Part shown: one piece after another, positions 26,170-31,994 of the stretch
Layout: every line of letters starts with the position of its first letter
Position numbering within the stretch: position 1 is the stretch's first letter
Assembly (NCBI GenBank): GCA_016869515.1
Contig: VGDZ01000024.1
Coordinates: forward strand, 1 to 41,353
DNA: 41,353 bases
Direction of reading: 5' to 3'
Source: Alphaproteobacteria bacterium
Lineage (GTDB): Bacteria > Pseudomonadota > Alphaproteobacteria > VGDZ01
Translations under genes and position numbers: made by a program
Notes under the pieces: generated by a model
The model's database searches: none
What the model was told of the DNA's origin: nothing
The model's input: the letters and a program-made list of their open reading frames with translations, nothing else

Positions 26170-26634
26170 TCAGAACCAGCGCCGCGTCCGCGCGACAAAG
26201 TCCAGATAAGGCCGGCCGAACTTGGCTGCGAGATAGCGTTCCTCGCGCGCCACCACGCCCCAGTTCAGCACCGCCCAGGTCGCGGCCAGCAGCGCCGCGA
26301 TCCAGGCGATGTCGGCGAACAGCGCGATCGCCAGCTGCAGCAGGCACAGACCGACATAGATCGGATTGCGGGTCAGGCGGTATGGCCCTTCGATCACCAG
26401 CGCCGTGCTGGGACGATTGGTCGGCACGTTGGTGCCGGCGCGGCGGAACAGCCTTATGGCCGGGACCGCGAAACCGAGGCCGACCGCCAGCACGACCACC
26501 CCAAACCCGATGCGCCACTCCGTCGTCAGCCCGAATCCCCAGGGCCACAGCGCATCCAGTCCCCACCCCAGTGCCAGCGCGATCGCCACCAGGATCGGCG
26601 GGCGAATCGCGACTCCGGCATTGTCCTGGCTCAA
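26170..26634 (-). CDS. ICMT/PEMT-like membrane methyltransferase
   Basis: A 154-residue polytopic protein of the isoprenylcysteine carboxyl methyltransferase / phospholipid methyltransferase type. Diagnostic segments are [13 protein letters not shown] (SAM-binding region) and the C-terminal [16 protein letters not shown]. About four hydrophobic segments are visible. Start choice: an ATG at 26667 exists, but TTG at 26634 has a textbook ribosome site (GGAGG, five bases upstream) and overlaps the preceding stop as TTGA, like many pairs here. The substrate is unknown. Co-transcribed with the Spy-like gene. Confidence 0.82.
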
Positions 26635-27035
26635 CCGCGCCTCCGCTGCCCCATTCCATCCAACCACTGGCGCTGTTCGCCGTCGAGCACGCCATAAAGC
26701 GCATCCAACGCCGGCCGTACTTTGTCCAATGCTGCCGCGGTCGCAGCCAACTTGTCCGGCAAGCTATGCGCGGCGCCACAGACCGTTTCAAGCTCGGCCC
26801 GCGCGGTCTTCGCCGCAGCGGCAAAGGCCTCCCACGCCGCGCGCTGCCCTGCGGTCGGACGCAGCACGGCCTCTGTCATGGTCAGCATGCCGTCGAGCCG
26901 CGCCGCGGCCTGGGGACCGCACCAGTCGGCGGCACCGCGGCCGTGGCGGCCATGAAACCAGGATTGATCGGCCGCAGCTGACGCTACGGCGGCGGACGAC
27001 AACACGGCTGCGAGCAGCAAACGCGATCCCCACAT
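26631..27035 (-). CDS. Small periplasmic Spy/LTXXQ-like protein
   Basis: A 134-residue exported protein. The ATG at 27035 is preceded by GGAGG and opens a signal peptide ending near ASAAA (about residue 22). The mature part is helical, with two LTXXQ-like repeats, LRPTAGQRAAWEAF and LDGEQRQWL, and two Cys that could form a disulphide. This resembles Spy/CpxP periplasmic stress chaperones, but the match is by pattern only. It lies between the MarR regulator and the methyltransferase, with an inverted-repeat site directly upstream. Confidence 0.7.
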   Translation of the reverse strand: MWGSRLLLAAVLSSAAVASAAADQSWFHGRHGRGAADWCGPQAAARLDGMLTMTEAVLRPTAGQRAAWEAFAAAAKTARAELETVCGAAHSLPDKLAATAAALDKVRPALDALYGVLDGEQRQWLDGMGQRRRG

Positions 27036-27074
27036 GGCGACCTCCATCGATGTCCATTCGGATATCGCAACGAA

Positions 27075-27101
27075 GTTGCCATAATGACAACTATATTGTC
27101 A
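27075..27101 (-). promoter_or_regulatory. Overlapping inverted repeats between marR and the Spy-like gene
   Basis: TGACAA-ctata-TTGTCA (27085-27101) is a perfect inverted repeat. Its left half is shared with a second one, GTTGCCA-taa-TGACAAC (27075-27091), with one mismatch. Read on the minus strand a consensus TTGACA (27102-27097) overlaps the repeat and CATTAT (27086-27081) could act as a -10 box. The site overlaps the marR stop codon. A MarR-dimer operator controlling the Spy-like/methyltransferase pair is inferred. Confidence 0.5.
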
Positions 27102-27566
27102 ATCTGTCTCGGAGGCCGCTCCTCCCGCCTTGCCGATCGCCGCCGACAGCCGCACCAACACCCGCCGTGCGGTAGCGACGTCCGACGGCCGGAAGGTCGC
27201 CGCCAACCCCGCCAATTGGCGATCGATTTTGGCCGACATGGCGCGATAGCGGCGTTCGCCCTTGGCCGTCAGCCGCACCAGCTTGGACCGCTTGTGACCG
27301 GGATTGGCCACGAACTCGACCAGCCCGGCCGCGGCCGCTTCGTCCGCCAGCCGCTGGATGCGCTGGCGCGCGACCGGACGAAGACGGGCGATGTGCGGCA
27401 CCGTCATCGCTCCTCCCAGCGCCAACGAACGGAGAAACCCCCACATGCCTCCGCCCCAGCCGGTGACCGCACCCGAACGCTTGCCCGCGGCGCGCATGCG
27501 GAAAAATACCCGCGCTGCCGCCAGCAGCAGTTCGGTCAGAGCCCCAGTGTCGGCGCCGCGCGTCAT
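27099..27566 (-). CDS. MarR-family transcriptional regulator
   Basis: A 155-residue winged-helix regulator. The N-terminal dimerisation helix is followed by the helix-turn-helix (MTVPHIARLRPVARQRIQRLADE), then the wing containing LVEFVANPGHKRSKLVRLTAKG, and a C-terminal helix. The ATG at 27566 lies seven bases after a TATATG -10 box, with no ribosome site. It faces an RND efflux pair across an 82-bp gap holding a perfect inverted repeat, so control of that pump is the natural inference; the downstream Spy-like and methyltransferase genes may be in the same regulon. Confidence 0.85.
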   Translation of the reverse strand: MTRGADTGALTELLLAAARVFFRMRAAGKRSGAVTGWGGGMWGFLRSLALGGAMTVPHIARLRPVARQRIQRLADEAAAAGLVEFVANPGHKRSKLVRLTAKGERRYRAMSAKIDRQLAGLAATFRPSDVATARRVLVRLSAAIGKAGGAASETD

Positions 27567-27575
27567 GCCGCGACA

Positions 27576-27612
27576 TATAGCGGTTTGCCGGCTCCGACGC
27601 CAAACCGCTATA
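27576..27612. promoter_or_regulatory. Interlocked divergent promoters in a perfect 12-bp inverted repeat
   Basis: TATAGCGGTTTG (27576-27587) and CAAACCGCTATA (27601-27612) are exact inverted copies with a 13-base spacer. Plus strand: TTGCCG (27585-27590), 18 bases, TATAAG (27609-27614) toward the RND genes. Minus strand: TTGGCG (27603-27598), 18 bases, TATATG (27579-27574) toward marR. Each arm therefore carries the -10 box of one promoter and the first -35 bases of the other, so one bound regulator would block both. Confidence 0.65.
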
Positions 27613-27622
27613 AGGTTCGGCC

Positions 27623-27661
27623 ATGAAGCTCGAAGCGGGACTCCATCCATGCGGCGGCTGA
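27623..27661 (+). CDS. Possible 12-codon upstream reading frame of the RND operon
   Basis: An ATG at 27623, eight bases after the TATAAG box, opens MKLEAGLHPCGG and stops at 27659-27661, overlapping the true adaptor start (27649) in another frame. As the first AUG of a nearly leaderless mRNA it could be translated and couple or limit adaptor translation. It could equally be chance. Confidence 0.25.
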   Translation: MKLEAGLHPCGG

Positions 27662-28896
27662 TCGGCATCGGCCTGCCGGCGCTGGTGCTGTTGGCGGCGC
27701 TGATGGCGACGGCGTGGCTGATCCAGACCCGGCCGCGGGTCGAGGCCAAGCCGCCCGAGGAAACGGTATGGCCGGTCGAGACCGTGGCGGTGCGCCCGGC
27801 CAGCCACCGGCCCGAAATCCTGCTGTTCGGCGAGATCGTCGCCAGCCGCGAGGCCGAGCTGCGCGCCCTGGTCGCGGGACAAGTGGTCGAAACCTCGCCC
27901 GCGCTGCTGGAAGGTGCCGCCGTCAAGGCCGATGCGCTGGTGGTGGCGATCGATCCGTTCGAATACCGCGCCACGCTCGAGGAACGCCGGGCGCAGCTGG
28001 TCGAAGCGCGCGCCCGCACGGCCGAGATCGAGGCCCGCCGCAAGGCCGAGGTCGATGCCCTGGCCTGGGACCGCCGCCAGCTCGAATTGAACGAGCGCGA
28101 CGCCAACCGCAAGACCGAACTGTTCGGCAAGGGTACCGGCACCGAAAAGGCGCTGGACGATGCACGGCTGGCGATGATGCGCCAACGCGTGGTGGTCGAG
28201 GGGCGCGCCAACGCCGTCACCGCGCTGGTCGCCCAGCTTGACCAGCAGCGCGCGGCGATCGAGCGCATGGCGGTGGGCGTGCGCCGCGCCGAGCGCGATC
28301 TCGAAAACACCCGCCTGACCGCGCCGTTCGACGGCATCCTGCGCGAGATCCAGGTCGCGGTCGGCAAGCGGCTTGCGATCGGCGACCGCGTCGCGATCCT
28401 GGCCGATCCCGCCGGCTACGAGGCGCGCGTCTTCCTGCCCGACGCCGATTACGGCCGCCTGACCGCGGCCGGCGATGCGCTGGAGGGCCGGTCGGCCAAG
28501 CTGGTCTGGCGCACGGGCGAACTGACCGAGGCGGTTTCGGCCGAGATCGCCCGCATCGGCCCGCGCATCTCGGCCGGCACCGGCGGCGTCAATCTCTATG
28601 CCCGCCTCGCCGCCGGGCCGGCGAGCCAGCGGCTGCGGCCAGGGGCCTTCGTCGAGCTGCGCCTGCCCGACCGCAAATACGACGCCGCCGTCCGCCTGCC
28701 GGCGGCGGCGCTCTATGCCGGCGGCACGGTCTATGTCGTCGCCGAGGGCCGGCTGCAGGCGCGCGCGGTCGAATTGCTGGCCCGCGACGGCGAGCACGTG
28801 CTGGTCAAGGGCGCGCTGGCCGAGGGCGAACGCGCCCTGGTCACCCGCCTGACGCGCATCGGCCCGGGCCTCAGGGTGCGCGAGCCGGCGACGTGA
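27649..28896 (+). CDS. RND efflux periplasmic adaptor (membrane fusion protein)
   Basis: A 415-residue HlyD/AcrA-type adaptor. An N-terminal membrane anchor (about residues 4-22) is followed by a lipoyl-like half motif (GEIVASREAELRALVAGQV), a long helical hairpin of alternating charged residues (about 105-210), the second half motif (LTAPFDGILREIQV) and the beta-barrel/membrane-proximal part. The ATG at 27649 gives a normal N-terminus; the ribosome site (GCGGGA) is weak. It links the pump to an outer-membrane channel in the periplasm. It overlaps the pump gene by 4 bp (GTGA). Confidence 0.92.
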   Translation: MRRLIGIGLPALVLLAALMATAWLIQTRPRVEAKPPEETVWPVETVAVRPASHRPEILLFGEIVASREAELRALVAGQVVETSPALLEGAAVKADALVVAIDPFEYRATLEERRAQLVEARARTAEIEARRKAEVDALAWDRRQLELNERDANRKTELFGKGTGTEKALDDARLAMMRQRVVVEGRANAVTALVAQLDQQRAAIERMAVGVRRAERDLENTRLTAPFDGILREIQVAVGKRLAIGDRVAILADPAGYEARVFLPDADYGRLTAAGDALEGRSAKLVWRTGELTEAVSAEIARIGPRISAGTGGVNLYARLAAGPASQRLRPGAFVELRLPDRKYDAAVRLPAAALYAGGTVYVVAEGRLQARAVELLARDGEHVLVKGALAEGERALVTRLTRIGPGLRVREPAT

Positions 28897-31800
28897 TCCA
28901 GCCCCTGATCGCGTGGTTCGTCCGCCATCCGACGGCGCACCACCTGCTGCTGGCGATCGTCGTGCTGATGGGCGCGATCGGCGTGACGCGGCTCAACGCC
29001 CAATTCTTCCCGACGCTGGGCTTCGATGTCGTCACCATACGCATGGAATGGCCCGGCGCCTCGGCCGCCGACGTCGAGACCAACATCGTCGAGGCGATCG
29101 AGCCCGAGGTGCGCTTCCTCGAAAACGTGCGCCGGGTCAGCGGCTTCGCGCTCGAGGGCGTCGGCGTGGTGGTGGTCGAATACAAGATCGGCTCCCGCAT
29201 GCCCAACGCCCAGAGCGACATCGAATCGGCGGTGGCGCGCATCACCACCTTCCCCAGCGACGCCGAGAAGGCGGTGATCCGCCGCACCTCGCTCGACGAG
29301 ACCATCAGCCGCATCGTCGTCACCGGCGACCAGCCGGAATCGACCTTGCGCCGCATCGCCCGCGATTTGCGCGACGGCCTGCTGGCTCGCGGCATCGACA
29401 AGGTCCAGCTCTACGGCCTGCGCGACGCCGAGATCCGGGTCGAGGTGCCGGCGGCGACGCTGCGGCGGCTCGACCTGACGCTGGCCGATGTGGCGCGGAC
29501 GATCGGCGAGTCCTCGCGCGACGTGCCGCTCGGCCGGCTCGACGGCGGGGTCGAGCGCCAATTGCGTGGCCTCGGCCAGGCTCAGGACGCCGACGGCGTC
29601 GGCGCCATCGTGCTGCGCGCGCGTTCGGACGGAGAGACCTTGCGCATCCGCGACGTCGCCGCCGCCACCGAATCCTACGACCGCGCCCAGCCGGCCGGGC
29701 GCCATCGCGGCCGTCCGGCGATCGAACTGCACGTGCTGCGCGCGCCCGCCGCCGATGCCTTGGTCGCCGCCAAGCGCACCAAGGAATTCTTCGACCAGGC
29801 GCGCGCGGCGCTGCCGCCCTCGGTCGAGCTGATCCATTACGACATCCAGGCCGATTTGATCGACGACCGCCTCAAGACCCTGATCGAGAACGGGCTGCAG
29901 GGCCTGACCTTGATCCTGATCTGCCTGTTCTTGTTCCTCAACGGCTGGCTGGCGCTGTGGGTGGCGGTCGGCCTGCCGGCGGCGATGCTGGCGACCTTCG
30001 CCATCATGTGGATGACCGGCCAGACCATCAACATGGTCAGCCTGTTCGCCCTGATCATGGCAGCGGGGATGATGGACGACGACGCCATCGTCGTCGCCGA
30101 GGAGATCGATTCCCGCTATGCCCGCGGCGAGGACCCGGTCGCGGCCGCGGTCGGCGGCGCCGGCCGCATGTTCGGGCCGGTGCTGGCCTCGTCCCTGACC
30201 GCGGTCTGCGCCTTCATTCCGATCGCCATGATCCGCGACATCCTCGGCCAGGTGCTGATCGCGATCCCGATCCTGGTCGCGACCATGATCGGCGCCAGCC
30301 TGCTGGAATGCTTCCTCATGCTGCCGGCGCATCTGCGCGCGGTGCTGCACCGCGTCCGCCGGCCGCCCGCCGGTTGGCGCCGCCATGTCGAGGCGGCGCT
30401 GGACCGCTTTCGGCGGGGACCGTTCGCGGCCGCCGTCGCCTGGGCGGTGCGCTGGCGCTACGTCACGATCGCGCTGTCGCTGGCGGCGCTTCTGCTGACC
30501 CTCGGCCTGGTGGGGGGTGGGCGGGTCGGCTTCGTCTTCTTCCCCGCGCCCGAGGCCGACGTGGTCTACGCCAATTTCGCCTTCGCGCCGGGCACGCCGC
30601 GGGCCAAGTCGGAAGCCATGCTGGCCGAACTCGATCGCGCGCTGGATGCGGTCGAGGCGCGCCACGGCAACGGCAGGTCGCTGGTCGTCGGCCGCTTCGG
30701 CCGCCTGGGCGAGACCCAGGGCCGGCAGTTCGAGACCATCGTCGGCGAGCATTTGGCCGGCATGATGGTCGAGCTGGCGCCCTCCGACGTCCGCAACCTG
30801 CGCACCCGCGTCTTCATGGAAGAGTGGCGCAAGGAGATCCGGCCGCTGCCAGGACTCGAACGCCTGACCATGCTGGAGCGCGAGGGCGGGCCGCCCGGCC
30901 GGCCGATCGATTTGCGGCTGTCCGGCGGGGCGCCCGACAAGCTCAAGGCCGCGGCCGAGGAGGCCAAGGCGCTGCTGGCGCGCTATCCCGGCATCGGCGA
31001 CGTCGAGGACGACCTGCCCGAGGGCCGGCCCGATCTCTCGCTGACGGTGACGCCGCGCGGGCGCAGCCTGGGCTTCACCACCGACAGCGTCGCCCGCCAG
31101 GTGCGCGGCGCCTTCGAGGGTCAGATCGCCACCCGCTTCACCCGCGGCGAGGACGAGATCGCGATCAAGGCGATGTATCCGCGCGCCGCCGCCGGCGAGG
31201 CCGCCTTGCGCGAACTGCGCCTGCGCGGCCCGACCGGCGCCGAGGTGGCGCTGACCGAGGCCGTGACCATTTCCGAAGCCGTCGGCTTCGCCCGCATCCG
31301 CCGCCAGGACGGCGTGCGCGAGGTCTCGATCACCGCCAACATCGACCTCGCCTTGGTCAAGCCCGACGCCATCCTGGCGCGCCTGCCGGGCGACGGGGTG
31401 ATCGAGATCGCCCGCCGCCACGGCCTCGACTGGCGCTTCGCCGGCAAGGCCGAGGAGCAGGCGCGCACGCTCGAGGATCTGCGGCTGGGCGTCGGCATCG
31501 CGCTGGTCGGCATCTACATCATCGTTGCCTGGATCCTGGGCCGGCTCGGCCGGCCGTTCTCGGTCATGCTGATCATCCCCTTCGGCCTGATCGGCGCGGT
31601 GCTGGGGCACAAGGTCATGGGCTACGACCTGACCATCCTGTCGCTGGTGGCGCTGATCGGGCTGTCGGGCATCGTCGTCAACAATTCGATCATCCTGGTC
31701 GACTTCATCGACGAGCATCTCGACCGCGGCGAACCGGTGTTCGAATCGCTGGTGGCGTCCTCGGTCGAGCGCTTCCGCGCCGTGCTGCTGTCCTCGATCA

Positions 31801-31994
31801 CCACCATCGGCGGCATGGCGCCGTTGATGTTCGAGACCAGCCTGCAGGCGCGGTTCCTGATTCCGATGGCGATCACCATTTCCTTCGGGCTGGCGGTGTC
31901 GATGACGCTGGTGGTGTTCGTGGTGCCGGCGATGGTGGCGATCGAAGAGGACATCAAGGCGCTGTGGCGCCGGCGCAGCCCGGCACACGCCTGA
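28893..31994 (+). CDS. RND-family efflux pump, inner-membrane permease
   Basis: A 1033-residue RND transporter with twelve predicted membrane segments and two large periplasmic loops. The proton-relay acids of segment 4 are Asp395-Asp397 in GMMDDDAIVV, where AcrB has two Asp. The N-terminus (IAWFVRHPTAHHLLLAIVV) is family-typical. The start is GTG overlapping the adaptor stop. No outer-membrane factor gene follows, so a TolC-like protein encoded elsewhere must complete the pump. Substrates are unknown; the MarR-type neighbour suggests induction by small toxic compounds. Confidence 0.95.
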   Translation: MIQPLIAWFVRHPTAHHLLLAIVVLMGAIGVTRLNAQFFPTLGFDVVTIRMEWPGASAADVETNIVEAIEPEVRFLENVRRVSGFALEGVGVVVVEYKIGSRMPNAQSDIESAVARITTFPSDAEKAVIRRTSLDETISRIVVTGDQPESTLRRIARDLRDGLLARGIDKVQLYGLRDAEIRVEVPAATLRRLDLTLADVARTIGESSRDVPLGRLDGGVERQLRGLGQAQDADGVGAIVLRARSDGETLRIRDVAAATESYDRAQPAGRHRGRPAIELHVLRAPAADALVAAKRTKEFFDQARAALPPSVELIHYDIQADLIDDRLKTLIENGLQGLTLILICLFLFLNGWLALWVAVGLPAAMLATFAIMWMTGQTINMVSLFALIMAAGMMDDDAIVVAEEIDSRYARGEDPVAAAVGGAGRMFGPVLASSLTAVCAFIPIAMIRDILGQVLIAIPILVATMIGASLLECFLMLPAHLRAVLHRVRRPPAGWRRHVEAALDRFRRGPFAAAVAWAVRWRYVTIALSLAALLLTLGLVGGGRVGFVFFPAPEADVVYANFAFAPGTPRAKSEAMLAELDRALDAVEARHGNGRSLVVGRFGRLGETQGRQFETIVGEHLAGMMVELAPSDVRNLRTRVFMEEWRKEIRPLPGLERLTMLEREGGPPGRPIDLRLSGGAPDKLKAAAEEAKALLARYPGIGDVEDDLPEGRPDLSLTVTPRGRSLGFTTDSVARQVRGAFEGQIATRFTRGEDEIAIKAMYPRAAAGEAALRELRLRGPTGAEVALTEAVTISEAVGFARIRRQDGVREVSITANIDLALVKPDAILARLPGDGVIEIARRHGLDWRFAGKAEEQARTLEDLRLGVGIALVGIYIIVAWILGRLGRPFSVMLIIPFGLIGAVLGHKVMGYDLTILSLVALIGLSGIVVNNSIILVDFIDEHLDRGEPVFESLVASSVERFRAVLLSSITTIGGMAPLMFETSLQARFLIPMAITISFGLAVSMTLVVFVVPAMVAIEEDIKALWRRRSPAHA

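Follow-up and report, generated by a model that had tools for sequence, protein, structure and literature searches.

A perfect 12-bp inverted repeat in the gap between a MarR-family regulator gene (marR) and a divergent RND efflux operon is interpreted here, with confidence only slightly above even, as a lineage-specific shared divergent promoter region that is probably also the operator of an unlinked repressor, with MarR acting elsewhere, at 27085-27101, on the LTXXQ-PEMT genes. The repeat would serve two divergent units, marR(-LTXXQ-PEMT) and the RND adaptor-permease operon. Almost the same 41 bp would carry two weak sigma-70-like promoters that face opposite ways. Polymerase there could take up only one of the two orientations at any moment, and, judging from the geometry, both promoters would be blocked by any protein sitting on the dyad. 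The repressor that probably reads the dyad would be encoded elsewhere in the genome. MarR would instead work through a 17-bp operator and a weaker copy beside it (27065-27081). As a shared promoter region the element is rather unexceptional, and the arrangement is ordinary in kind. The features are listed in Table 1.

Table 1. Features at and around the inverted repeat in the window (the whole stretch of DNA analysed, 41,353 nt)
Feature	Position	Strand	Sequence or basis
Left arm of perfect inverted repeat	27576-27587	.	TATAGCGGTTTG
Right arm of perfect inverted repeat	27601-27612	.	CAAACCGCTATA
Putative RND operon promoter	27585-27614	+	TTGCCG-18-TATAAG, 9/12 consensus bases; consensus match only
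Putative marR promoter	27574-27603	-	TTGGCG-18-TATATG, 8/12 consensus bases; consensus match only
marR, MarR-family regulator, 155 aa	27099-27566	-	Pfam MarR_2, E 2.9e-8; homologue alignment
RND efflux periplasmic adaptor gene	27649-28896	+	HlyD_3; TIGR01730 RND_mfp above cut-off
RND efflux permease gene	28893-31994	+	ACR_tran, E 1.7e-138
LTXXQ-family gene, likely MarR target	26631-27047	-	Pfam LTXXQ; linked to marR homologues
PEMT-family methyltransferase-like gene, likely MarR target	26170-26667	-	Pfam PEMT; linked to marR homologues
Predicted operator of the MarR clade	27085-27101	-	TGACAATATAGTTGTCA; overlaps marR stop codon, upstream of LTXXQ gene
Predicted weaker second operator copy	27065-27081	-	TGGCAACTTCGTTGCGA; 20 bp from first, second-best matrix score in window

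The inverted repeat and the putative promoters

The arms of the repeat are exact reverse complements separated by a 13-nt spacer, giving an element of 37 bp with its dyad centre at 27594. It lies in an 82-nt gap between marR (minus strand, ATG at 27566) and the RND adaptor-permease operon (plus strand, ATG at 27649), and the earlier note's description of a perfect 12-bp repeat at this place was confirmed. A weaker dyad reaches arms of 24 nt with 79% complementarity. Each arm alone is a poor palindrome, and the arms are 25 bp apart from centre to centre. The 41-kb window contains no other perfect 12-bp inverted repeat whose arms are 30 nt or less apart. Whole-window shuffles contained a mean of 0.58 such repeats, and one per 41 kb is unremarkable. 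Its position inside the marR-RND gap is notable, and when the gap was dinucleotide-shuffled 20,000 times, a perfect 12-bp inverted repeat (loop up to 30 nt) arose in 0.015% of the shuffles. The repeat is single-copy in the 3.69-Mb genome, even with up to 3 mismatches allowed, and only one other AACCGCTATA was found there, without a second arm.

Overlapping sigma-70-like -35 and -10 boxes were present on each strand: TTGCCG (27585-27590) and TATAAG (27609-27614) on the plus strand, and TTGGCG (27603-27598) and TATATG (27579-27574) on the minus strand. Both pairs match the consensus weakly, and a stricter promoter scan, which required the final T in the -10 box, listed none in the marR-RND gap. 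A promoter pair of equal quality occurred in 0.5% of gap shuffles. The hexamers are those from which two interlocked promoters had been proposed, and the sequence can be read as two antiparallel putative promoters that overlap almost completely. The equal 18-nt spacers, also named in the earlier note, are forced by the mirror symmetry and hence provide no independent evidence. The predicted starts, near 27621 (plus) and 27567 (minus), are about 55 bp apart, and each adjoins an ATG (27623 and 27566, respectively) at 28 to 29 nt from the dyad centre, indicating that both transcripts could be leaderless or nearly leaderless.

A 12-codon ORF (27623-27661, plus strand, MKLEAGLHPCGG) begins with the ATG at the predicted plus-strand start and runs across the adaptor start codon at 27649. 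One possibility is a leaderless leader peptide that is translationally coupled; another is chance. On the marR side, the CATG at 27564-27567 contains both the marR start codon (minus strand) and an in-frame upstream ATG of the adaptor frame (27565, plus strand). If the ATG at 27565 were used, the repeat would fall within coding sequence; adaptor homologues align from the start at 27649.

Promoter-box bases make up 7 of the 12 bases in each arm. The middle of each arm (ACCGC/GCGGT) is outside either promoter box, yet it matches, and the chance of five extra matching bases per arm was estimated from base composition at about 1 in 500 to 1000. The dyad is more symmetrical than the promoter boxes require, which suggests that it is probably also an operator for a repressor encoded elsewhere.

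The predicted operator of the MarR clade and its gene neighbourhood

MarR homologues were sought in 385 genomes of the class Alphaproteobacteria, and the 15 closest were 40 to 63% identical to the MarR of the window. The source genome is the sole member of its family and order in the comparison set, and the comparisons are therefore at class level. The DNA-recognition segment (TVPxIARxRPVARQRIQ) is nearly identical between the window MarR and its closest homologues. The homologue loci share a conserved 17-bp palindrome, TGACAA-N5-TTGTCA, which lies ahead of marR, in the space separating marR from its partner genes, or in both places. With up to one mismatch, it was found at 13 of the 15 closest MarR loci, whereas all 29 RND-adaptor loci from this class lacked it. 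The site at 27085-27101 is the only match to this motif in the 3.69-Mb genome at the same stringency; the motif adjoins marR homologues and is rare elsewhere. A matrix built from the homologue loci gave its two best scores in the window to this site (32.2) and to the copy at 27065-27081 (7.1), and the 20-bp tandem offset between the two was also seen at loci L005, L008 and L020. In the marR-RND gap the best score was -15.7, a value reached by two thirds of random stretches of equal length. A literature search returned nothing specific on the operator of this MarR.

On its other side, marR adjoins the LTXXQ and PEMT genes, and 8 of the 10 nearest homologues likewise adjoin PEMT and/or LTXXQ genes. 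The neighbourhood of marR, an LTXXQ-family gene and a PEMT-family methyltransferase gene is kept in several orders of the class (L005-L014); a literature search found no description of it. These observations indicate that the neighbouring MarR probably controls the LTXXQ-PEMT genes through the site at 27085-27101 and the weaker one next to it; repression at 27085 is the mode of control that we infer.

At the homologue loci examined, no RND adaptor gene lay within 1.5 kb on either side of marR, and none carried the 12-bp repeat. The relatives of the RND adaptor were up to 48% identical, and at the 29 loci examined neither this MarR beside them nor a similar inverted repeat upstream was found. 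Often a TetR-like gene lies upstream of them, or an argE-like gene is in divergent orientation to them, these names being read from translations and not from a family search. Among the genomes compared, the marR-RND arrangement was seen only in this one. The repeat, with up to two mismatches, was found in the 385 class genomes only here and in one chance-like match. The core of the repeat, sought as AGCGGTTTG-N12-14-CAAACCGCT in 84,980 species genomes, gave at least 117 stretches and is common across bacteria. Among the matches listed, these are largely terminator-like hairpins followed by T runs, and none has a MarR of this type nearby. A search of other genomes for the arm next to this regulator family had been suggested in the earlier note; no copy beside this family was found in the other class genomes or among the matches listed. 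A peptide-word search for this MarR in GTDB contigs found nothing. The palindrome TAAAGCGGTTTGCGCTTAATCTGGCGCAAACCGCTTTA was seen on at least four contigs of one uncultured Rhodospirillaceae MAG, CAIULK01 (L102, L108, L141 and L143), and looks like a dispersed REP-type repeat or a small mobile element.

Alternative readings of the repeat

In the model of the earlier note, MarR itself occupies the repeat and shuts off marR and the RND operon at once; an inducer would then derepress both. The gene order makes this a natural guess: marR and its presumed pump target point away from each other on either side of a short gap, no other regulator turned up in those window genes that were scanned, and divergent MarR/efflux pairs run from a shared gap are common, e.g., pecS-pecM (PMC6391409). 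The evidence on binding points the other way. The conserved operator for this MarR is a different sequence, about 500 bases from the repeat, and the marR-RND gap has no match to it. MarR sites are reported as palindromes of 16 to 20 bp (PMC6018408, PMC6391409), which the repeat, with its 12-bp arms and 37-bp length, does not resemble in size or spacing. No MarR homologue locus examined has either the repeat or the pump. MarR as the binder of the repeat is accordingly improbable, and simultaneous derepression of regulator and pump by MarR is unlikely, since its predicted operator is elsewhere and its homologues neighbour LTXXQ and PEMT genes and not a pump. The idea that one bound protein would shut both promoters survives in part, as the geometry fits occlusion by a single protein or polymerase, although the neighbouring MarR does not fit as that protein.

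The repeat may also represent two overlapping divergent promoters and nothing more, with perfect symmetry arising by chance or from box constraint, no dedicated repressor, and any regulation coming from polymerase competition. This is somewhat unlikely but has several points in its favor. More than half of each arm consists of promoter-box bases, a 12-bp repeat somewhere in such a window is expected by chance at the shuffled frequency given above, no linked repressor besides MarR was found, and E. coli acrR/acrAB provides a documented case of opposed promoters with competing polymerases (PMC12825309). Against it, the ACCGC bases match between the arms without a promoter reason, and it is because of this match that we read the dyad as the operator of an unlinked repressor. 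The promoter activity and this repressor are both predictions from the DNA sequence. The preferred reading has its own difficulties: a unique operator usually adjoins the gene of its regulator, the only regulator found nearby is this MarR, and the promoter matches are weak, with one scan listing none. The genome gave no match to a TetR-like protein taken from the RND locus of one relative, a negative result of little weight.

It is very improbable that the repeat is a transcription terminator, an RNA hairpin or a mobile-element remnant. The RNA of the region folds well (-40.3 kcal/mol, z -2.5), and the terminator-like context of the core in other genomes would agree with a hairpin. However, the repeat is located between divergent genes, where no terminator is needed, it is flanked by a T run on neither side (ATAAGG, ATATGT), and it is single-copy in the genome.

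How the element came about can be suggested only speculatively, by a doubtful scenario in which the RND operon became a neighbour of marR, whatever MarR autoregulatory site had existed there disappeared, and a new element with self-symmetry took its place. Each arm would then combine one promoter's -10 box with the first bases of the other's -35 box, forming a minimal, mutually exclusive regulator/pump switch that responds to an unlinked repressor or only to competition between polymerases.

A palindrome adjoining a regulator gene need not be the operator of that regulator, and here the plausible guess is probably wrong. The comparison yields a concrete candidate operator for an uncharacterised MarR clade, together with the LTXXQ and PEMT-like genes as its likely targets. 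The compact overlapping divergent promoter pair at an RND pump may be a modest test case for polymerase competition.

Comparison with known systems

The locus resembles the marR-LTXXQ-PEMT loci L005-L014 in its homologous MarR, in the mostly LTXXQ and/or PEMT neighbours and in the TGACAA-N5-TTGTCA motif. Unlike the locus studied here, none of these has an RND operon within 1.5 kb on each side, and none has the 12-bp repeat. Like pecS-pecM (PMC6391409), the locus has a MarR-family gene and an efflux gene that are transcribed away from each other, with a short palindrome-containing gap between them. The PecS sites are AT-rich 18-bp palindromes within the gap, whereas the clade operator is outside the gap here, and the pump is of the RND type and not PecM.

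In E. coli, PacrA/acrR is a bidirectional promoter at which polymerases compete for the DNA that two opposed promoters have in common (Warman et al. 2026, PMC12825309). The starts there are 10 to 23 bp apart with a shared -10 element, and AcrR is a TetR-family repressor, unlike the MarR of this locus. In contrast, the starts predicted here are about 55 bp apart, and there are two separate -10 boxes, each facing the -35 box of the other promoter, so that the locus falls outside the bidirectional promoters defined by Warman et al. (shared -10, starts about 10 to 23 bp apart). As in PacrA/acrR (PMC12825309), the opposed putative promoters overlap in the space that separates a regulator gene from an RND pump operon, and mutual polymerase exclusion would apply.
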